The notes below the pieces were generated by a model, which made no database searches, was not told the DNA's origin, and saw only the letters and a program-made list of their open reading frames with translations. A program made the translations under genes and the position numbers. 20,475 bases of DNA. It comes from a virus. Where the stretch lies: the IMG/VR virus record IMGVR_UViG_3300021961_000797, positions 1-20,475 of that record, one strand, 5' to 3'. This document shows positions 2,448 through 20,154 of this stretch, in pieces; position 1 is the stretch's first letter, and each line of letters starts with the position of its first letter.

Positions 2448-3227
2448 TTACATGTAACTCTTGAACACCTCTGCATTAGAACCATAGAGTTCAACAAAAC
2501 CAGTCTGATTATTGAATAAAGTTATTTTAGCATGATATCCACGAAGTCCATATGACTCTGACTCAGAATTTTTAACTATATAGCAAAAATCACCAACAGA
2601 AGGTAAAGTAGCTGTAGAATCTACGGTTATTTCTTGTCCAGAAAAAGAATCTACAATACCAATTAAAGCGGTCGCTCCACCTGATAATTGAACCCATAAT
2701 TCATCTCCACCTTGTCCATCAACATTATTAGCTGATACTTGATTCGGAATATTTACGCTAAATCCATATACATTAGCGCTATTTGCAGTTTGCAACTCTC
2801 CAATACCCAAAACAGAAAGTTTATTATAGTTGTTTTTGTCAGAACTATTTCTTCTTATATAAGAATATCTTATTCCTTCCTTATCCTCAAACTTTAAATT
2901 TGTTGAACTACCTATAGAGCCAAATTCCAAATCAGAAGACAAAGTTGCCCACCATCCATCAGAATTTGTTTCCAGTCCAATGGTTTTAAATAATTTGATA
3001 TCAGACGGACTTTGGTTTGAAGAATAAGTTATACTACATCCATATGTTGTTCCATAAAAATTTGTTCTAGTATTATTTTCATCATGAACATACAGCTCAC
3101 CCCCTTTAAAGGTGTAAAACCTATTCCCCAGACGCTCCATCCACTCTGGGACATACGAATGAAATGAAGTCCACGCATTGTAGACCTCATCAAAAGTTAT
3201 TGTTTTTTGTCCTACTGGTAATGCCAT
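2448..3227 (-). CDS. Detached C-terminal module of the tail stabilisation/muzzle-type protein
   Basis: This is a 259-residue protein with an ATG at 3227, one base after the stop of the giant tail gene and in a different frame. Residues 9-46 (TITFDE, then WTSFHSYVPEWM, then NRFYTFKGGELY) and the end (RGYHAKITLFN, then VELYGSNAEVFKS) match what I recall as the conserved C-terminal module of large stabilisation proteins in crAss-like and marine phages. There it is normally fused to the propeller-bearing N-terminal part. Residues 55-85 (NFYG, then IKLFKTIGLE) belong to the same module. The fold is probably all-beta, at the tip of the short tail. The TAATATG junction suggests translational coupling to the upstream gene. 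The family assignment is from memory of motifs, not a search. Confidence 0.65.
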   Translation of the reverse strand: MALPVGQKTITFDEVYNAWTSFHSYVPEWMERLGNRFYTFKGGELYVHDENNTRTNFYGTTYGCSITYSSNQSPSDIKLFKTIGLETNSDGWWATLSSDLEFGSIGSSTNLKFEDKEGIRYSYIRRNSSDKNNYNKLSVLGIGELQTANSANVYGFSVNIPNQVSANNVDGQGGDELWVQLSGGATALIGIVDSFSGQEITVDSTATLPSVGDFCYIVKNSESESYGLRGYHAKITLFNNQTGFVELYGSNAEVFKSYM

Positions 3228-3228
3228 A

Positions 3229-6200
3229 TTAATCGTCTAATATTACTGGCCAGGTTTGCCCACTTGGAGTAAATCCTAGCGTGTTAAGTGAATCTGTGAT
3301 ATGATACAAGTAATAATACTGCCATTGGTCAAATCTGTCTGTTGTAGAGCCTGGCTTAAATGGAGCTGGAGTTGTGCCTTGAGCCGCTCCTGGGCCATCC
3401 TCTATATTATATTTGTAATGTAGAATATGGTTGCTTCCACCAGATATACTAGCTAAATTCTGCGTAGACTGAGTATAGCCTGGAGTTGTTCCAGTTTCCA
3501 TAGCTGCCATAAAATCTTGGAAGCCTTGATACCCAGCAACATTCATAAACACCCCTCTATAGAATCCTGAGTTACTTCCGTTTAACGCTTGAACAGATGA
3601 TTTTAAACTGGCTATATCAGAAACGGCAAGTGTGTTTGGCGAAGATGGTAATGATTGACCTTGTCCAACAGCATAAGGGCTAGCTTCGTCTTGGAAAGAC
3701 AATACAATTACGTTAGACGCATCACTCGGATAGTTGCCGTTATTTACGAAATCACTATTCATAATCATTCTCATCGAACGCTCAGTTGCATCAGTCACAA
3801 TAGTAACTTTATCGTCATACTCATCACTTCCATTTGTTGCTGGGTCTGTATTACCTTGGCTTTCAGTTAATCCAGTAGCATATAAATCTTGAAGCACAGA
3901 TTTCAATGAATCTCCAACCATAGTTTGAAGTGGAATATACGTTCCAGTCATTGAGCCAGTGGAATCAAAAACTAAGTAAATATAAGTGTCGACAGAAATA
4001 GCTAATGCTTCTGTAGTCACTGTTGCTTCTGCTGTACAAGTTCCTCCCCTGTCAACAATATATGTAAATGAATCATTTAGCGGCTGGCCAGATGTATGGG
4101 TGTATGTAATGGTGTCATTCGCATTAACAACAGCTGTCCCGTAAGAAGGAGGTGTCCCTATTGTTATTGTGTATGGAGATGGGAAAGTATCGTTTGCAAC
4201 AACATCAATTACAACACTACCTCCCTCTTCAATTCCTGTTACAGAATCATCTACAAGAATTGGAAGCTCATCAATATAATTATATACAATATATAATTTC
4301 TGGCTTGTGTTTTCTCTGTTGAAGGTAAATGATATTGTACTCTCTTCCTCTGTAGACGTTGTGGTTGTTGTAATTATTGGGTATGCAGCCTGGTCAACAA
4401 TATCTTGCACACTCATTCCAGTTGCCCCAGAAACCAAATAACCCAAGCTATTACAAGGGCCGAATGTTCCTGTGTGATTGCCAAGTTGTTTTAAAGAAGA
4501 TACTGTAACGATATCCCCATTAGCTGGTATAACATCAGAACCTACAATTCCTGTAACAGTTTCATATCTAGTTAACTCATCAGCCTCAAATATATCTAAG
4601 TCTGAATTGTAAATATTCCCATTATCGCCATCATGTTTATATCTATTTACTATTGTTTCTCCTGCCTCTCCAGCATCATTAACAACAATAAGAACAATAT
4701 CCATAGTTTCAGGGACTGGGCAAATATGCGTTATACTTACATTCGCTGTTGTAGCTGGAGATATGGTTACGTCTGCAATGTTTGTAACATCTAAATCTTC
4801 TTGAGTTACTGGGAATGTTATACTTCCAGTACCAGTAAGACCTGTATTGTTATATGTATTTCCATTATAAACAACAACGATATCTATAGCCCCAGATGTT
4901 GTGTAGGAAATAGTAGCTGTTCCAGGATAGGAACCAACATTTAAGTCGTATGAGAATGGAGCTCCTAATTGTCTTGTAAATGACGAAGCACAATTCAATA
5001 CCAAAGGAGCTTGTGGTCTTTGCTCATCGCCCATTGTTAGCACATACTGATTGTATTTAGGGTCAAACCCCCCTATATTGTAGCTGCCTTTATTTCCATA
5101 AAGCTCCCTTTTAAAGAAAGACTTCATTCCATATGACGATATCGGTGTCAATCCATCGCCCCCAAGCCTTAGTACGGTTCCTCTATTTGCGTCAGTAAAG
5201 TACATGCTCCCCTCATAGTGGCCAAAAGACTCTGGGTGTACGGATATTCCATACTCGCCAGTAAAAGGAACGTCTTGCCCAAGAACTTGTTCTATTTGAG
5301 ACAAGCTTCCGCTTCCATCTGGGCTAGTCAATATGTTTTTCCCGTAAAGAACTTTTGAAACCCTATCCTCTTGGAATACAATTAAATCAGACTCTCTGGC
5401 AAAAATCTTTTGAATAGAGCCATATTTTATATCCATGTATTTTGTTATGCCTCTACTAGCATTAAACTCATTAAGAGTATTGTACCCTGTATTTTCGTTA
5501 AAAGCCCCGCTATAGATAAGTTTGTTTTTATCTTCTCTTCTTTCATATCCTTCTATTATAGCAATATTTGGCCTAGACTTTATATCATAAATAGGCTTAA
5601 ATCTATCATCCTTAATCCTAATGCTTTCAACCCCGTTCCCAAAGCTAAAACAATTACCAAATCCCAAGTCACAAATAGCTGGAACAGAAGCCGTCTGGTT
5701 TTGAGTGTTTCCTTGATGGTATCCAGAGTCATTTATAAAAAATGTTTCTTCTGTTTCATAATAAACATCATCATCAACATCAATAGCCTCTGTCTCAAAA
5801 ACCAAAAGACCGCTTATTAAAACAAGGTCTATTGTTGTTGTTAACCAACTTTTTTCGGTATTAGAAGTCCGTTCGTTTGTAATCACTCTCATTACAGTTC
5901 TGCCGGTTGAATCAGATGGATTTTTAAATATTATAAACCTAAAGTGTTTACTTGGGTTTGTTGACGGAATTATAAATTCTATAGCATCACTATCTCCAGA
6001 ATACGATAATGGGTTACTCTGGAATGGAGTTTCATTTTCAAGCCATTGAGCAAAAGCATTATTAACACCTCCTGTTGCTCCGCTTGTGTAACTCCCATTT
6101 ACAGTATATTTTTTATTAAAAAAGAAGTTTGGACCACCGGCGTCAGATTCTTCGTACTTTAAATCTATGCTAATCTGAGAGCCAGTGCCCAGTTCTTGGT

Positions 6201-8475
6201 CTATATAAGTTGAAGTATTGTTATCATATACTTGTAAAAGCCCCTTTGTACTATCCCCAGTGCTATAAAACCCTAAATCAATTCCAGGAATCCAATGTGC
6301 ATTATAACCAGAATATATGTATTTAATTTTACTTCTGTAGTGATATGTTATAAAATTGTCTTCATTAAAGTCCATTGTAAAGTTCAACGGACGTATTTTC
6401 ATGTAAGTCCCAGATTTTTCTAAAATATCATTGCCATCAAGCCATCCTTTTTCTCCAGTAGCCTCGTCTGCTGCATTTTTAGTAGTCACCTCTAGAACTT
6501 TAGTTTTTACTTCCTGGTCTAAAGGCCCATTATCGTCAGACTTTACAATTAAAGTTTGCCCAGCTTCTACTTTGCCTAAATTAGCTCCCTGCAATAAAAC
6601 CCATCGATACAGCCCATCTTCATAAAATATAGTCGCATATACATTATAGTGATGCCCTTTATTTACTTTTACAAAAAACTTGTATCGGTCAGCCCAATAT
6701 GGGGCTTTGTGATTTACAGCTACCTGAAGCTTGTTTATGTTTACACTTTTATCCGCAGAAACAAATACTTCATTTGAAGTTTCTCCAATAGATTCTTTCG
6801 GTAATAAAATACTAGAATACCTTCCATATTCATCTAGATAAACCAATCCAACTTCATAACTACGCAAAGACTTACAAGAAACATTACTAGAGTCTTCTCT
6901 AATAGCCATTACAGAGGCAGTTGTGAATTTAAACTGTTCTACTTCATCCGTAAAATCTATATCATTAGGGTCTGCTGGAGTATTATCTACTTGATGCGTT
7001 ATGGTTGGAGCTAAAAGCGTAAAGGAAGTTGCTGTACTAGCGTCTAATGAAAATTGACCATATGTAACATCTACTGTGTCTGGCGGGCTAGTTGTTGTTA
7101 CAACAGCGCCAAAGCTACCACTCAAACTTGTTAAAAAGTCTAAAAACTCTTGAGAGGCAACCATATCTGTAACGGAAGCATAGTCCTGAGATAAGATAAA
7201 AGCGTTTTCTAAATTAGCGTCTCCATTGAAATATGTATTTGGCTCTGTTCCTACCTCGTCAGACTCCAAAACAATAACAGCGGTTAAAGTACTTCCCTGT
7301 GTTAAATCTATATCTGTAAAATCGAAAGTAATTTTAGTGTCGTTTGCAGATAATGTGTCATCTAAATTATCACCTTCTTGTGAAGTGGAAATTAAAGAAA
7401 CATTGTAATCTATTCTGATTTTTTGATTACCACCTTCTTCTTCAACTAAATCATATTGAGAAGTAGTATTCCCGTAAACAATTCTGTCATTTATAAAGTC
7501 TTGAGCTTTTGCCGTCAACGGGATATCATCAAAAATCCTAAAAACCTCATCTTGAGGGAGTGTTTTGTATATTTTTTTATTAGCAAACTCGTAAGTCTGT
7601 GTCGAGTTGTCCGGCACACTACTTTCTTCTTTATTTATATTGTCAACGATATAAATAGTCGGGTCTGTAGGATATTTAAATAATAACTGAACATCTGTAA
7701 CTCTATGGTCTCCAGAGCTATATGATATTCTATAGCCATTAAAAACATTTTCCATACCATCATTCTCCATAGAAGTCCAGTTAATGGCAAATTGTTTTGG
7801 GCTAAATTTAAAATAAGTAAATGAAGACGAGGCAGAATAACCCCCATCTAAATAACGATATCGATATGCAAATGCAAAAAAGTTTTCTTTTACTGCGTTT
7901 TCTGTAGGAGTTCCTGTATTAAATGGAGTGACTGTAGGGGCTGTTTGTGGCGCTTTTTTATATAAACAGATATCGTCTTCGAAGAAATTGTTTATTCCAT
8001 ACGTTTTTCCTCGTTCAATATCCACCATTCTAGGTTGATTCAACCCGTCTGTAAACAAAAGTAACTTTGTTTTTTTTGATGTATTATAAACGACATTTAC
8101 CCCTGTAATCTTATAATCTTTACTAAAATTTAATACCTGACTTCCAGAAGCTCTTTCGTCTGCAAGAACAGTTGAGGTAATATCGTTTTCTACATCATAT
8201 TCAAATATATATGAGTACCCCAGGTCATTTACAACAAACCAATAAATTTTTTCTTCTGCCTCATCCGACACAGAGCCTATACATTCTGGATTATTAGATA
8301 ATCCTAGCTCAGTTAGCCTTACATTTCCTCTTTCGTTTTCAAGAGCCCCAGCATCAGACCCAGCTGTGTTTAACACACGAACATTCAAGGCGTTGGTATA
8401 TTCGCCATTTGGAACAAGACGCTCATCAACGTCTTTGTTCATTTTACCAGTATTAAATAAATTTTGAATCTTCAT
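3229..8475 (-). CDS. Giant tail stabilisation/muzzle-type protein with Ig-like, Big_9 and VWA-like C-terminal domains
   Basis: This is a 1748-residue protein with an ATG start at 8475. The N-terminus (residues 11-51: KMNKDVDERLVPNGEY, then DAGALENERGN) is the signature I associate with large tail stabilisation proteins of podovirus-type phages (P22 gp10-like, crAss 'muzzle'). Residues about 1060-1145 (YFTDANRGTVLRLGGDGLTP, then GFDPKYNQYVL) look like propeller blades. From about 1150 the protein departs from that layout. It has Ig-like beta segments to about 1350, a Thr-rich linker near 1365-1375, and a Big_9/cadherin-like domain at about 1405-1490 (EEGGSVVIDVVANDTF, then NDSFTYIVDRGG). A von Willebrand A-like domain follows from about 1497 to the end, with a MIDAS-type DSTGSM starting at D1504 and a strand-plus-Asp VIVLSFQDE (D1596). 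The usual C-terminal module is encoded by the next gene. It is likely an adhesive, metal-dependent tail-tip component; the binding role is inferred. Confidence 0.75.
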   Translation of the reverse strand: MKIQNLFNTGKMNKDVDERLVPNGEYTNALNVRVLNTAGSDAGALENERGNVRLTELGLSNNPECIGSVSDEAEEKIYWFVVNDLGYSYIFEYDVENDITSTVLADERASGSQVLNFSKDYKITGVNVVYNTSKKTKLLLFTDGLNQPRMVDIERGKTYGINNFFEDDICLYKKAPQTAPTVTPFNTGTPTENAVKENFFAFAYRYRYLDGGYSASSSFTYFKFSPKQFAINWTSMENDGMENVFNGYRISYSSGDHRVTDVQLLFKYPTDPTIYIVDNINKEESSVPDNSTQTYEFANKKIYKTLPQDEVFRIFDDIPLTAKAQDFINDRIVYGNTTSQYDLVEEEGGNQKIRIDYNVSLISTSQEGDNLDDTLSANDTKITFDFTDIDLTQGSTLTAVIVLESDEVGTEPNTYFNGDANLENAFILSQDYASVTDMVASQEFLDFLTSLSGSFGAVVTTTSPPDTVDVTYGQFSLDASTATSFTLLAPTITHQVDNTPADPNDIDFTDEVEQFKFTTASVMAIREDSSNVSCKSLRSYEVGLVYLDEYGRYSSILLPKESIGETSNEVFVSADKSVNINKLQVAVNHKAPYWADRYKFFVKVNKGHHYNVYATIFYEDGLYRWVLLQGANLGKVEAGQTLIVKSDDNGPLDQEVKTKVLEVTTKNAADEATGEKGWLDGNDILEKSGTYMKIRPLNFTMDFNEDNFITYHYRSKIKYIYSGYNAHWIPGIDLGFYSTGDSTKGLLQVYDNNTSTYIDQELGTGSQISIDLKYEESDAGGPNFFFNKKYTVNGSYTSGATGGVNNAFAQWLENETPFQSNPLSYSGDSDAIEFIIPSTNPSKHFRFIIFKNPSDSTGRTVMRVITNERTSNTEKSWLTTTIDLVLISGLLVFETEAIDVDDDVYYETEETFFINDSGYHQGNTQNQTASVPAICDLGFGNCFSFGNGVESIRIKDDRFKPIYDIKSRPNIAIIEGYERREDKNKLIYSGAFNENTGYNTLNEFNASRGITKYMDIKYGSIQKIFARESDLIVFQEDRVSKVLYGKNILTSPDGSGSLSQIEQVLGQDVPFTGEYGISVHPESFGHYEGSMYFTDANRGTVLRLGGDGLTPISSYGMKSFFKRELYGNKGSYNIGGFDPKYNQYVLTMGDEQRPQAPLVLNCASSFTRQLGAPFSYDLNVGSYPGTATISYTTSGAIDIVVVYNGNTYNNTGLTGTGSITFPVTQEDLDVTNIADVTISPATTANVSITHICPVPETMDIVLIVVNDAGEAGETIVNRYKHDGDNGNIYNSDLDIFEADELTRYETVTGIVGSDVIPANGDIVTVSSLKQLGNHTGTFGPCNSLGYLVSGATGMSVQDIVDQAAYPIITTTTTSTEEESTISFTFNRENTSQKLYIVYNYIDELPILVDDSVTGIEEGGSVVIDVVANDTFPSPYTITIGTPPSYGTAVVNANDTITYTHTSGQPLNDSFTYIVDRGGTCTAEATVTTEALAISVDTYIYLVFDSTGSMTGTYIPLQTMVGDSLKSVLQDLYATGLTESQGNTDPATNGSDEYDDKVTIVTDATERSMRMIMNSDFVNNGNYPSDASNVIVLSFQDEASPYAVGQGQSLPSSPNTLAVSDIASLKSSVQALNGSNSGFYRGVFMNVAGYQGFQDFMAAMETGTTPGYTQSTQNLASISGGSNHILHYKYNIEDGPGAAQGTTPAPFKPGSTTDRFDQWQYYYLYHITDSLNTLGFTPSGQTWPVILDD

Positions 8476-8476
8476 A

Positions 8477-9364
8477 TTACTTAATCCACTTGTCTCTTCC
8501 TCGTAAAATTTGAGTAAGTTCGCCTAGGTTAATAGAATTTAATCGAATCTTTGTGTTTCTTAATGACGCAGAAGCCTGTTTTTGGGCTCTACGAACAATA
8601 TATTCTTGAACTCCGAATTTTTGTTTCAAAATGCTAGAAACTAAATAATCATACATGAAGTTCTCTGCTAATTTATGAACTTTTATCTCATCATCAGCCA
8701 ATCCATACATACCATCAGAAACATATTCTATAACAATGTTTTTCCCGGACAAGTCGGAACTAAATAATATAAATCCTTGATTTTTATCTATAACATAGCT
8801 TCCATTGTGGTTTGAACTTGCAGTGTCCATTCCAAATCTTTTCCCTAATAAATTAGTATCTGGAGCAATAGCGCCTGTATCTGGTTGGCTTCTCCAATTT
8901 GTTTCAATAACAGGAGTACCAGTAAGTGCATTATCATTATTATCCATCAAGATATTCTTTTGAGCAGAGTTGTCTTGAAGGTAACTAGTTGGAGTGGCTG
9001 TGTTATAGTTTTGTCTTATTTGATGTGTTAGACCATCGTCTCCTACAAAAGATATTTTTACAGGGCTAACAAAATCGTGTGGTAAATGCATTTTTAAATT
9101 GTCTGGCAATTCAGCTTCAAATCCACGAATTTCCCTTAAAGCATCGTAATGAATTTCCTGAAGGCCGCGTTTTGCATGAAACACAACTTCATTTCTGTCA
9201 GCTTTATTAATAACCTTATCATCACCAACATAAGTCAATAAAAAGTTATTTATAATATCATGCAAAAGCAAATACTGGTAAGTACCCCAGTTTTCCCAAG
9301 TAGGATTATTACCATTATTTTGATAGTATTCTCTTTGGTCTATATGTGTTCCGATAATTGGCAT
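8477..9364 (-). CDS. Tail tubular/ring-type connector protein
   Basis: This is a 295-residue protein. The N-terminal third carries YQYLLLHDIINNFLLTYVGD (about 29-48), then FHAKRGLQEIHYDALREI (about 62-79) and LPHDFVSPVKISF. The C-terminal part has FSSDLSGKNIVIEYVSDGMY, KLAENFMYDYL and a basic end (RNTKIRLNSINLGEL, then LRGRDKWIK). I recognise these as typical of tail-tubular or ring proteins beneath the portal in crAss-like and related short-tailed phages, where they extend the DNA channel. There are no membrane spans or enzyme motifs. The stop of the preceding gene is three bases upstream (TAACCTATG), and the giant tail gene starts one base after this stop (TAATATG), so all three are probably co-translated. 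The exact ring position is not resolved. Confidence 0.7.
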   Translation of the reverse strand: MPIIGTHIDQREYYQNNGNNPTWENWGTYQYLLLHDIINNFLLTYVGDDKVINKADRNEVVFHAKRGLQEIHYDALREIRGFEAELPDNLKMHLPHDFVSPVKISFVGDDGLTHQIRQNYNTATPTSYLQDNSAQKNILMDNNDNALTGTPVIETNWRSQPDTGAIAPDTNLLGKRFGMDTASSNHNGSYVIDKNQGFILFSSDLSGKNIVIEYVSDGMYGLADDEIKVHKLAENFMYDYLVSSILKQKFGVQEYIVRRAQKQASASLRNTKIRLNSINLGELTQILRGRDKWIK

Positions 9365-12491: not shown

Positions 12492-13709
12492 TTAATTATT
12501 TTTTCTAATTTTAAGTCTAGAACCAAATGAAGAGCCGTCATTAACTACTCTAAATTTAGCTCCAGGTTTTGACGAATCAACATTAGCACGCACATCCATT
12601 TTTATATTTTTACCATCCTTAACCACTTCATTCACCGCATCTGCCTTGCCTTGCTCATAAAAGAACTTAGCATATGCTTCAGGGTTCGTAGCCATGTTTA
12701 AGGCTTTATGATACTTCTGTGCATCTTTTAGAACACCATTGTCGTCTAAAAACGATTGAATAAAATTGTTTAGGTTTAATTGTTTATTTACAATCTCATT
12801 CTTGTCTTTAGGCTTATAGGTTAATGTTTTTTCACCGACTTTAAAATCAAAACCTTTGAATTCGTCATTAAAAAACTTAGAGGTTTTTTCCTCAAAGACA
12901 AGTCTTTGTTTCTGCATAACCTCTTGCTCTTTAGCCTTTTCGTCATTATATTGCTTGTAAAACTCAACAGCGTTTTTGGCGTCTTCAGGTAAACTCTCCG
13001 TACTTGACTCAAGTGGAGCTTTGTATTTTTCCTTCATTTGCTCAAAATACTGCTTCGCTTTATGAAGCTCTTGTTTCTTCTCAAGATTTTTCCTTTTGAC
13101 CTCTTTATCCGTATGGATATCTTCGTCAATGTTAAATTTATCCTCTATTAAATAATCAATATCGGAATCATCAAGCTCTGGATTTGATTGTTTGTAGTAC
13201 TCTCGTAACAAAGCTGTTTCTTCATAATTAGACACATCTTCATTTGCTTTAACGAAATCTTTCAAGCCTCGCTTGGTTTCGTTCTTGTACTGCAAATACT
13301 TCTCTACCTCCTCTGGAAGCTCTTGAGTTTTTTTATCCTTATTTAAAAGAACGCTTTCTAAATCTTCAAGCCCCATACTATACTTATTAGTAAGGAACTC
13401 AGCGATTATTTCTTCTTTAGAGATGTTGGCTACCCTCTTTTGGTTTCCTTCATCCACTTTTTGCAATTCCACTTCGGCTTCTTGTTCGCCTTTTTGGCCT
13501 TGCTCGCTAGAGCGTAACACGCTTTCATCTGTGCCTTGTTCTTGAACGGCATCTCCAGCTTCTTTATTAATATCTTGTTGAACTTCCGAGTTTGGCGTGT
13601 TTTCACTTCCGACTTCGGCAGTTTCTTCTTTAACATCTTTAGCCTCTTTTTTCACAGGAGGCTTTGACAAGTCGACTTTAAAGTCAACTTCTTGATTTTC
13701 ATTACTCAT
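12492..13709 (-). CDS. Putative capsid scaffolding protein
   Basis: This is a 405-residue, extremely charged protein. Residues 1-90 are Glu/Gln/Asn rich and probably disordered. Residues about 95-300 are Lys/Glu-rich helix or coiled coil (YLQYKNETKRGLKDF, KEVKRKNLEKKQELHKA, YFEQMKEKYKAPLE). The end is basic (SSFGSRLKIRKNN). An acidic, elongated helical protein with a basic C-terminal tip, between portal and major capsid genes, is the usual profile of a scaffold whose tip contacts the capsid protein. I see no serine-protease motif, so a fused maturation protease is unlikely. Sequence families of scaffolds are poorly conserved, so the call rests on composition and place. It is separated from the portal gene by 44 bases containing a TAnnTTTG box. 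Confidence 0.65.
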   Translation of the reverse strand: MSNENQEVDFKVDLSKPPVKKEAKDVKEETAEVGSENTPNSEVQQDINKEAGDAVQEQGTDESVLRSSEQGQKGEQEAEVELQKVDEGNQKRVANISKEEIIAEFLTNKYSMGLEDLESVLLNKDKKTQELPEEVEKYLQYKNETKRGLKDFVKANEDVSNYEETALLREYYKQSNPELDDSDIDYLIEDKFNIDEDIHTDKEVKRKNLEKKQELHKAKQYFEQMKEKYKAPLESSTESLPEDAKNAVEFYKQYNDEKAKEQEVMQKQRLVFEEKTSKFFNDEFKGFDFKVGEKTLTYKPKDKNEIVNKQLNLNNFIQSFLDDNGVLKDAQKYHKALNMATNPEAYAKFFYEQGKADAVNEVVKDGKNIKMDVRANVDSSKPGAKFRVVNDGSSFGSRLKIRKNN

Positions 13710-13735
13710 AATAGATTAAATTAAAATTTATACTG

Positions 13736-13743
13736 CAAAGCTA
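13736..13743 (-). promoter_or_regulatory. Candidate -7 box (TAGCTTTG) before the scaffold-like gene
   Basis: The 44-base spacer between portal and scaffold-like genes reads TAGCTTTG on the minus strand, an exact TAnnTTTG, 26 bases before the ATG at 13709. A run of nine T residues lies just upstream. No -33 TTG is found at the usual spacing, so this is only suggestive. Confidence 0.3.
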
Positions 13744-13753
13744 TAAAAAAAAA

Positions 13754-16195
13754 CTACTGTTTTTGTTGGCCCATGATTCCCTGAAGATTCGCTAATATTT
13801 CATCAGCAGAGCCATCTTGAGAGAAGTTAGTTGGAGGTAGGTTTTCTTTTCTTTGTCTTATTAGTTTGCTTTGTTGTGTTGCTTGCTTGTCAGTTCTCTT
13901 GTCTTTTCTATCCTCTTTGTACTTTTCTTTATTTGTAACCATATCAGAGTCAAGCTGTTTCAGCTGCATCTCGTACTGATACTTAATCTTCATGAGTTCT
14001 GCATCAATCTCTTTTTTAGCTTGCATCTGTTGTAAATCTAGTTGAGCTTTCATCTGAAGAATTTGAGACTCCATTTGGTTTTTCATTTGCTCCTCCTGAA
14101 GTCTAGCTTGAGAAGCTGCTTGAGAAGATTGAATATTAGAGTCAGTTTGCATTTTAGTCGCTTGCTGCTGCATCTCCATATCTTCTTTCTGCTTTCTTCT
14201 TTTTCTAATTTTCAATAAAGAATTAGCTAGTGTGTGATTTTTTACAGAACGCACATCAATGGCATCGTCTAAATCAATCTTACCAGCCTGAATTGATTGC
14301 TGAATATTCTGCTCAAGCATTTGTTTTTCTTCTTCGTCTGGCTCTATTTCTATGAAAATACCAAAATCATGAAGGTGTAGTCCTACAATCTCTTCTAGAA
14401 TCCCCATATTGTTTTTGCTAATCATTTTAGCAAAATCCTCATAAAAATCAGAGTACATCATAATATCAGAAACCCTGTAACATATCGCTTCAGCAAGTCT
14501 TTTAGTAATAAAAATACCAGACTGAACAACATGTCTTGTAGCGGTATTACTGTTGAGAGCGGCAAGTTTCTGTAATCCAACCAATGAATATTGGTCTGGA
14601 GTACTTCCATCTCTAGATTCGTTAATACCCGTTACAGCTCTAATCATGTTTAGCTGATAATTATACATATTTATCAGACTAGCTATTTTAGCATTAGAGC
14701 CACTACTTGTTAGCTCTTGAATAGGGACTTTAGCATTATTAAATTCTCCATCTTCTGTATAGCTTCTACCAATAACACTACCAGTTTGGAAATACATGGA
14801 TAAAGCCTCAGATGGATTATATGACGCTCCATTACCCAAATCAACACTATTTAGTCCATCGGCATCAATAAATACTCCGTCTGGAATCATTTTTGAAACC
14901 ACTTGTTGTAGTTTTAAGTGTGTAAGTTGGATTTGGTCAGCAAAAGGAATCATTCTTTTTACAAGAGAATCAATGTTGCCTTTTGACATTTTTATCGCTG
15001 ACACAATATACGGAGGCAGTGCTTTTTGAAAAGCCGATTTAGGCCTAACCATATTTTCCATTACTCCCCACTTAATCAAATGATTAGTTCCTAAAACAAG
15101 AACTCCATCATACCAAACATCAATACGTCTAGAAACTTTTTGGAACCTAGCTTGTTCTGTTTTTGGTGGATTAAATGAATTGTCTTTTTTTAATGGTTTT
15201 TGTCCGCCATTTTCGTTTTGCTTTACCTTATATACAATTTCCTTATCCGTCTTATAGCAGAAGTAAAGCAAGGAAACATTAGACTTATCTAGTCCACTTT
15301 GGCTTTGTAGATTTTGTGTACTCCTATATCCATCAAATCTACTCGCAAGTTTAGATATTTCTTCTATTTCTTCCTGAGTTAGATTTGGATTAATCTTTTT
15401 TATCTCTGTAACATGCACTGATTTTACTTCTCCAAAGTAGTAACAGTCCCTAAAGCTAGGGTCTTCTGTTGGAGAGTACACGAAATTAACAGGGTCGACA
15501 TACTCTATACGAACACCATCGTGAACATCAAAAGAATGTTTTATGGCAGCAATACCAAGAACAACATTGTCTTCGTCTACGCGCCTTTTGATTTCATCAT
15601 ATTCATTCAGCTCCAGAATAGTCTTTATTGCAGTTTCTTCTGCAACCTCAACAGCTTGCTTGTATCTTAAATCCATGTAAAGATTAAGCTCTTCTTCCGT
15701 ATCTGGAATCATTTCTTCTGGAAAGTTAAATGCATTAACTCCAGTTTCTTGCTTCACATAAGTTAGCATGTCTTTTGCCAACATATCGGTTTCAAGCTCG
15801 TTTCTGAACCGCTCCCTGCGAAGCGCAGACAAATCATCTACAGCTTCAACGTTTACATCGAGCAATCTGTTTTGAATTCCATTGACAACAACATCAACAA
15901 ATTTTGGTATAATGGGAACTGGAGTCCAATCTAAGTTTAGATAAGACAAATCTCCATTTACGGCAAGTTCGTTTTTATATTTTTCTACAGGCTGTTCGCC
16001 TCTAGCATAGAGTCTTCTGTTTAAAAACTCAGAACGGATTTCTCCATAAAGGCTACTTCCATAATCTCTAGAAAACCATTCAGACTCAATAGCCTGACCT
16101 ACACGAAGCCCATACTCATAGGTATCTTTTTCTATGTCAGGTACAAATTGATTAGGGAAACCACTACCTGAGTTGAATCTTGGCTTATTTATCAT
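13754..16195 (-). CDS. Portal protein
   Basis: This is an 813-residue protein starting ATG at 16195, two bases after the terminase stop (TAAGCATG). The N-terminal half has the portal clip/wing layout: LRVGQAIESEWFSRDYG, WTPVPIIPKFVDVVVNGIQN and RIEYVDPVNFVYSPTEDPSF. The block TGINESRDGSTPDQ (T522 onward) followed by LVGLQKLAALNSNTATRHV is one I recall as conserved in crAss-like and related podovirus portals. From about residue 655 to 780 the chain is almost pure Gln/Met/Lys/Glu helix (MEMQQQATKMQTD, LQMKAQLDLQQMQAKK), expected for an extended barrel or crown helix inside the head. Twelve copies would form the DNA gate between capsid and tail and dock the terminase. Length fits the roughly 800-residue portals of that group. 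Confidence 0.85.
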   Translation of the reverse strand: MINKPRFNSGSGFPNQFVPDIEKDTYEYGLRVGQAIESEWFSRDYGSSLYGEIRSEFLNRRLYARGEQPVEKYKNELAVNGDLSYLNLDWTPVPIIPKFVDVVVNGIQNRLLDVNVEAVDDLSALRRERFRNELETDMLAKDMLTYVKQETGVNAFNFPEEMIPDTEEELNLYMDLRYKQAVEVAEETAIKTILELNEYDEIKRRVDEDNVVLGIAAIKHSFDVHDGVRIEYVDPVNFVYSPTEDPSFRDCYYFGEVKSVHVTEIKKINPNLTQEEIEEISKLASRFDGYRSTQNLQSQSGLDKSNVSLLYFCYKTDKEIVYKVKQNENGGQKPLKKDNSFNPPKTEQARFQKVSRRIDVWYDGVLVLGTNHLIKWGVMENMVRPKSAFQKALPPYIVSAIKMSKGNIDSLVKRMIPFADQIQLTHLKLQQVVSKMIPDGVFIDADGLNSVDLGNGASYNPSEALSMYFQTGSVIGRSYTEDGEFNNAKVPIQELTSSGSNAKIASLINMYNYQLNMIRAVTGINESRDGSTPDQYSLVGLQKLAALNSNTATRHVVQSGIFITKRLAEAICYRVSDIMMYSDFYEDFAKMISKNNMGILEEIVGLHLHDFGIFIEIEPDEEEKQMLEQNIQQSIQAGKIDLDDAIDVRSVKNHTLANSLLKIRKRRKQKEDMEMQQQATKMQTDSNIQSSQAASQARLQEEQMKNQMESQILQMKAQLDLQQMQAKKEIDAELMKIKYQYEMQLKQLDSDMVTNKEKYKEDRKDKRTDKQATQQSKLIRQRKENLPPTNFSQDGSADEILANLQGIMGQQKQ

Positions 16196-19830: not shown

Positions 19831-20154
19831 TTAAGCAATGGTTATGGTCATAGATTTAGGGGTAATTAAGTCTTCAATCTGTAAAGCAATGTTAGCTTCA
19901 ATAGACGCAACTTGCTCATCGCCCATAGTTGCTTTTGTCCAAGCTACTACTTCTTCATTAGTAAGTTCATCAAATGGTATGAAGTCAGTAATACCACTAG
20001 TATCTAAAACCTGAGTTCCAATATTGGTTGCGCTGACATTAGCATCTTCATCTTTACCTGTTACTATCCAGTGTACGTTATACACAACATCTGTGTAATC
20101 TCCATCTGTAGGGTAAACGTCTACAGTTTTGCAATTCCAATCGTAAGTAATCAT
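19831..20154 (-). CDS. Small conserved-type phage protein of unknown function
   Basis: This is a 107-residue protein starting MITYDWNCKTVDVYPTDGDY. It has a beta-rich first half (VVYNVHWIVTGKDEDANVSA) and a helical second half (FDELTNEEVVAWTKATMGDE, then VASIEANIALQIEDLITPKS). This layout (a Trp-centred strand, then an F-x-E-LTxEEVxxW helix) is one I recall from short uncharacterised proteins in many marine and cyanobacterial phages, often near tail genes. The acidic character and lack of membrane or enzyme motifs fit a structural accessory or assembly protein, but no role is assigned. It starts 22 bases after the upstream structural gene. Confidence 0.55.
   Translation of the reverse strand: MITYDWNCKTVDVYPTDGDYTDVVYNVHWIVTGKDEDANVSATNIGTQVLDTSGITDFIPFDELTNEEVVAWTKATMGDEQVASIEANIALQIEDLITPKSMTITIA

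Follow-up and report, generated by a model that had tools for sequence, protein, structure and literature searches.

The window analyzed here is a 20,475-nucleotide stretch of viral DNA (IMG/VR record IMGVR_UViG_3300021961_000797, positions 1 to 20,475), in which a minus-strand gene for a 1748-residue tail protein is followed directly by a short gene for a 259-residue protein (Table 1). The sole Pfam domain found in the longer protein is Big_9 (PF17963), which scores above the cut-off (E 1.5e-11), and in a structural model of residues 1185–1748 this region resembles cadherin and Ig domains (Z up to ~8.5). This bears out the Big_9 part of the first-pass annotation, made from the sequence alone, which had proposed a Big_9-like domain followed by a VWA-like domain with a MIDAS motif at the end of a tail protein, and which had correctly placed the stretch upstream of the motif (EEGGSVVIDV from residue 1416, NDSFTY from residue 1467). 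At the other end of the window, upstream of the terminase gene, positions 19831–20154 encode a small DUF7936 protein (E 5.9e-24) of no known function.

Table 1. Features of the tail-protein locus, in positions of the window.
Feature	Position	Strand	Length or basis
Tail protein ORF	8475..3229	minus	1748 aa
N-terminal conserved part of split muzzle, residues 1-1148	5032..8475	minus	BLASTP, phrog_14478, phi13:2 identity
C-terminal cassette (1149-1748): beta-rich domain(s), Big_9, VWA, stop	3229..5031	minus	~600 residues
Big_9/cadherin-like domain, residues 1404-1487	4015..4266	minus	PF17963 and model matches
Predicted VWA-type domain, residues 1496-1748	3232..3990	minus	AlphaFold2, VIA-align
MIDAS-like motif D1504-S-T1506-G-S1508, end of first predicted strand	3952..3966	minus	
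Invariant E1565, candidate third-loop metal ligand, just past predicted strand	3781..3783	minus	
Invariant D1596 in F-Q-D-E motif, end of predicted strand (model residues 93-100)	3688..3690	minus	
Split point: gene 1 stop and gene 2 ATG one base apart (TAATATG)	3225..3231	minus	
Separate gene for muzzle C-terminal part, crAss_MUZ_C	2448..3227	minus	259 aa

Relatives of the tail protein are found among the structural proteins of Elemovirus and of Cellulophaga phages (Pachyviridae). Its N-terminal part matches phrog_14478 (E 7e-282) and is 35% identical to a structural protein of Cellulophaga phage phi13:2. A search of the muzzle sequence against the PDB gave no match. By BLASTP, residues 2–1148 align in two pieces with residues 3–1240 of the Elemovirus muzzle (29–40% identity), and the product of the next gene aligns with residues 1252–1492 of the same protein (35% identity, E 6e-33) and contains crAss_MUZ_C (PF25729, residues 53–127, E 2.7e-9). 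In Elemovirus both parts lie in a single chain with crAss_MUZ_C near its end, and this unsplit muzzle has no counterpart of the cassette formed by residues 1149–1748. Since the alignment ends at Elemovirus residue 1240 and resumes at 1252 in the neighboring gene, the muzzle has here been split into two genes and the cassette added at the break. The podovirus-type tail position proposed earlier is therefore that of a crAss-like muzzle, by homology and by the adjoining crAss_MUZ_C gene, and the carrier is a marine relative of the gut crAssphages, probably with a host among the Bacteroidota.

Residues 1496–1748 are predicted to adopt a VWA-type fold of the integrin I domain superfamily. The AlphaFold2 model of this region (17-sequence alignment, pLDDT 83.9, pTM 0.84) consists of strands alternating with helices, and the motifs at 1504–1508, 1565, and 1596 directly follow predicted strands. 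When the model was compared with known structures using VIA-align, 28 PDB chains were found at Z ≥8 and the top-ranked rows were almost all VWA or I domains, the best being integrin beta-I domains (that of beta3 at Z 10.5, rmsd 2.9 Å over 153 residues). The VWA-like fold read from the sequence in the first-pass annotation thus held up in the model. In a second AlphaFold2 model, that of residues 1185–1748, the VWA part matches inter-alpha-inhibitor (Z 8.2) and the SpaC pilus adhesin (Z 6.7). Foldseek gave weak matches in the PDB, the best being the CD11b A-domain (E 0.023), with none below E 0.02; legumain and other Rossmann-type matches (E 0.03 and above) were dropped as generic. Among predicted viral proteins it returned two unnamed entries and a protein of Virus NIOZ-UU157 (E 6.6e-8) called ‘VWFA domain-containing protein’, a name indicating that single members of the family had already been annotated. 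A CobT-like or other non-structural phage VWA protein was ruled out, as the domain forms the end of a structural protein.

Comparison of profiles linked the module to flavobacterial VWA domains (E 5.8e-5, probability 66%) over only 44 columns around the first motif, with a control comparison against MUZ_C giving a probability of 0.1%. The VWA models of Pfam and NCBIfam did not match any of 33 family members at E up to 1, the listing for PF00092 did not pick up the module in eight genomes known to hold it, and nothing usable for the domain came out of searches in Pfam, NCBIfam, or PHROGs. Sequence searches of the PDB with the single domain, the domain profile, the muzzle, and the cassette likewise gave nothing significant. 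The family is overlooked by current profile databases.

The candidate metal site lies where the first-pass annotation had read it, with DSTGSM beginning at D1504 and SFQDE at residue 1593, and its conservation was assessed in 64 sequences with mutual identity below 90%. D1504, G1507, S1508, E1565, D1596, E1597, and D1620 are each present in 64 of 64 relatives, and position 1506 is Ser in 60 and Thr in the other four. Part of the invariance of DxSxS and FQD was selected for, because the two locus scans used the patterns FDxSGS and FQD, while E1565 and D1620 stood in no pattern of those scans. Conservation of the site across these sequences is far beyond what chance would give. The third MIDAS loop supplies a Thr in most VWA domains; here the invariant residue is a Glu, E1565, which we take to resemble the acidic third-loop residue of integrin beta-I domains (E220 in beta3). 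A divalent metal is probably held via D1504, T/S1506, S1508, E1565, and D1596. It could be argued that the domain is instead a decayed Rossmann-like domain that has kept its fold and binds no metal, in that a Thr in the third loop is only loosely kept (position 1567 is Thr in 51 of the 64 relatives, and Thr or Ser in 55) and the domain is invisible to Pfam. However, copies from phages, injection systems, and lipoproteins have diverged to ~30% identity and D1504, S1508, E1565, and D1596 are invariant in all of them, which a decayed domain would not be expected to retain, and we regard decay as very improbable.

The break in the muzzle is not peculiar to this phage. Small gaps or overlaps separate the two muzzle genes in most VWA-bearing relatives, and where the sequence extends far enough past a VWA muzzle, the MUZ_C gene is nearly always the next one. 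A survey of the 80 closest MUZ_C loci, a sample that favors close relatives and has proportions other than those of the whole order, showed the halves as separate genes in 73 and fused in one. VWA ends 16 of the 73 split muzzles and many other extensions end the remaining 57, in which additional ORFs often precede MUZ_C. Exchange of muzzle end domains and insertion of ORFs are thus concentrated at the split point. The earlier suspicion that the module is no standard part of muzzles also proved correct, as none of 87 GenBank phage records with a related muzzle contains it.

One explanation of this arrangement is structural, with the VWA module clamping the two muzzle halves together, or anchoring fibers or neighboring subunits, and having no contact with the host. 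VWA domains often mediate protein–protein contacts within assemblies, and the module does sit exactly at the break between the halves with MUZ_C directly behind it. Against this, the 57 split muzzles that lack VWA indicate that the module is not required to join the halves, and it is also found in lipoproteins and in injection-system clusters that have no muzzle (see below). We therefore think a structural role unlikely.

In viruses, the module was confirmed in 107 stretches of IMG/VR, 80 of which were kept. The carriers are muzzles, either long and with Big_9 or shorter and lacking it, and Thr-Pro-rich proteins, on contigs of up to 340 kb. In one phage that has terminase and tape-measure-like genes, the module lies among the tail genes. 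Searches of 50,697 GenBank phage records with queries taken from the window, from a Thr-Pro-rich protein of a phage, and from a short muzzle did not find the module, the only match being a chance one at E 10. One viral contig of 339,794 bases (L077 and L086) has two copies of the module in different proteins, one of them close to the gene for a family B DNA polymerase. A 2503-residue muzzle with a VWA end (L020, 1329–8837) has a stretch before the VWA domain that is unlike the usual Big_9, and a contig of a VWA-muzzle phage (L105) is binned as an epsilonproteobacterial genome, probably in error. At another locus (L085, 6641–11617) a 1659-residue protein with cadherin and SprB repeats adjoins the VWA protein. 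SprB repeats are known in flavobacterial gliding adhesins.

The last of these neighbors fits the proposal that the module adheres to a target other than the receptor, such as a polysaccharide of algae or particles or some secondary surface, and so keeps the phage near its hosts. Adhesins commonly contain Big_9 and cadherin-like domains, and the flavobacterial hosts are often found attached to particles. The position of the module at the tail tip rather than on the capsid favors receptor recognition, and adhesion to a non-receptor target is a doubtful alternative.

The module is also present in bacteria, where it is C-terminal in putative lipoproteins of Salegentibacter, Gillisia, Salinimicrobium, and others, and in proteins of ~1050 residues in Chryseobacterium, Flavobacterium, Dokdonia, and Aquimarina. 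Those ~1050-residue proteins that were examined follow Baseplate_J-type genes and give a weak match to PKD, and in five genomes the module is ~12–15 kb from tail-tube genes. Both the baseplate neighbors and this distance are what an extracellular contractile injection system (eCIS) would be expected to show, and the module protein lies beside baseplate genes, where fiber genes are expected. In five flavobacterial contractile-injection clusters (L107, L118, L109, L110, and L115) the module is in the long baseplate-adjacent protein (VWA at ~8001–8600). In L107 and L118 the next protein resembles it at the N-terminus and has no VWA end. Downstream of the cluster in L118 is a gene (13202–14509) for a PKD protein with a terminal Hint (intein-like) domain. 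A 451-kb flavobacterial contig (L111, 3693–9308) contains a split muzzle that has both Big_9 and VWA, possibly that of an integrated crAss-like prophage.

The module is rare in bacteria, as it was found in only one of 395 sampled genomes of the same phylum besides the query genome. An unrooted tree of the module groups its copies by carrier. The muzzle label requires at least two changes on this tree, with the muzzle of the flavobacterial contig and the short muzzles standing apart from the main group of 27 rows, and the module has thus probably joined muzzles more than once. The first-pass annotation had suggested acquisition from a host adhesin, and such an origin is possible because flavobacterial lipoproteins carry the module, with the unrooted tree giving no direction.

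We consider it most likely, with moderate confidence, that the region is an exchangeable, metal-dependent receptor-binding tip on a crAss-like muzzle, with its heads at the tail end. According to this proposal, the muzzle chain is interrupted at a single loop and continues in a second gene, and the end thereby created on the first half bears an Ig/cadherin-like stalk tipped by the VWA-type domain. If the muzzle is hexameric, by analogy with that of phi-crAss001, the tail end would carry about six VWA heads. Through a divalent metal, each of them would bind a ligand on the host surface, and ligand binding would position the muzzle before the gate opens. From the computed results (fold, motif conservation, muzzle homology, the split, the exchange of ends, and the recurrence of the module in other tail-region proteins, injection-system clusters, and lipoproteins) we infer exposure, the hexamer, the metal, the ligand, and triggering. 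The tip reading is based on the VWA fold, the conserved site, the identity and splitting of the muzzle, its variable ends, and the presence of the module on injection-system proteins and lipoproteins and among the tail genes of another phage. It also draws on the VWA fibers of eCIS (PMC12923769), the fimbrial adhesin Mfa5 (PMC7835359), and the cell contact proposed for the crass domain (PMC10172136). Counting against the receptor-binding tip are the failure of VWA family models to match, the 44-column extent of the profile link, the weak Foldseek matches, the Glu that replaces the canonical MIDAS Thr, and the lack of any GenBank phage isolate with the module; the phage also probably has further fibers besides the cassette. 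A broader proposal, which we hold to be improbable, is that a beta-I-like VWA family with an acidic MIDAS is a common surface-recognition currency of Bacteroidota, their phages, and injection systems, and that on the muzzle it would work as an integrin head does, with metal-dependent ligand binding pulling on the split muzzle and so opening the gate.

These results bear on host choice in crAss-like phages by pinpointing the muzzle split site as the place where end domains are swapped, and they name a definite domain and residues that are open to expression and testing. The family, missed by profile databases, is common to phage tails, injection-system clusters, and host lipoproteins, and its presence on a phage tail, on injection machines, and on surface lipoproteins suggests an interchangeable metal-dependent part for cell recognition.

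The closest comparison is with the crAss_MUZ_C muzzle of phi-crAss001 (gp44), the likeness being that two neighboring genes here align to one Elemovirus muzzle. The phi-crAss001 muzzle is hexameric, and according to a published proposal its distal crass domain makes contact with the cell and so initiates the opening of the gate (PMC10172136). While gp44 has IG and crass domains and no reported VWA domain, the muzzle here is split and carries a 600-residue extension ending in Big_9-VWA. A muzzle-like protein of Cellulophaga phage phi13:2 (Pachyviridae) has the same split, and Big_9 at the same place, but ends in another domain of ~150 residues instead of VWA. No report of a VWA muzzle was found in literature searches that combined crAss-like phages or phage tails with von Willebrand or MIDAS. 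The likeness to integrin beta-I lies in the fold, the D-x-S-x-S motif, the Asp after the fourth strand, and the candidate acidic third-loop residue. Compared with VWA and I domains, however, the module has long insertions and little sequence separating its second strand from its fourth, and it is only 12–13% identical to the best VWA/I structures. Among Bacteroidota surface adhesins, the Porphyromonas gingivalis fimbrial tip protein Mfa5 combines VWA, MIDAS, and Ig-like domains (PMC7835359). It differs in that its MIDAS is of the classical type, containing Thr224, and in its large ARM2 insertion (PMC7835359), and no sequence match between Mfa5 and the module was found. In the eCIS fiber group eBAP4 of a 2026 catalog of fiber domains, PKD and VWA domains are associated (PMC12923769), and the flavobacterial proteins described here similarly combine a PKD-like domain with the module and adjoin baseplate genes. 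This likeness is by domain types only, since the catalog was built on Pfam domains (PMC12923769) and Pfam misses the module family. VWA domains on adhesins and eCIS fibers are thus already known, and the VWA domain of the muzzle extends that kind.
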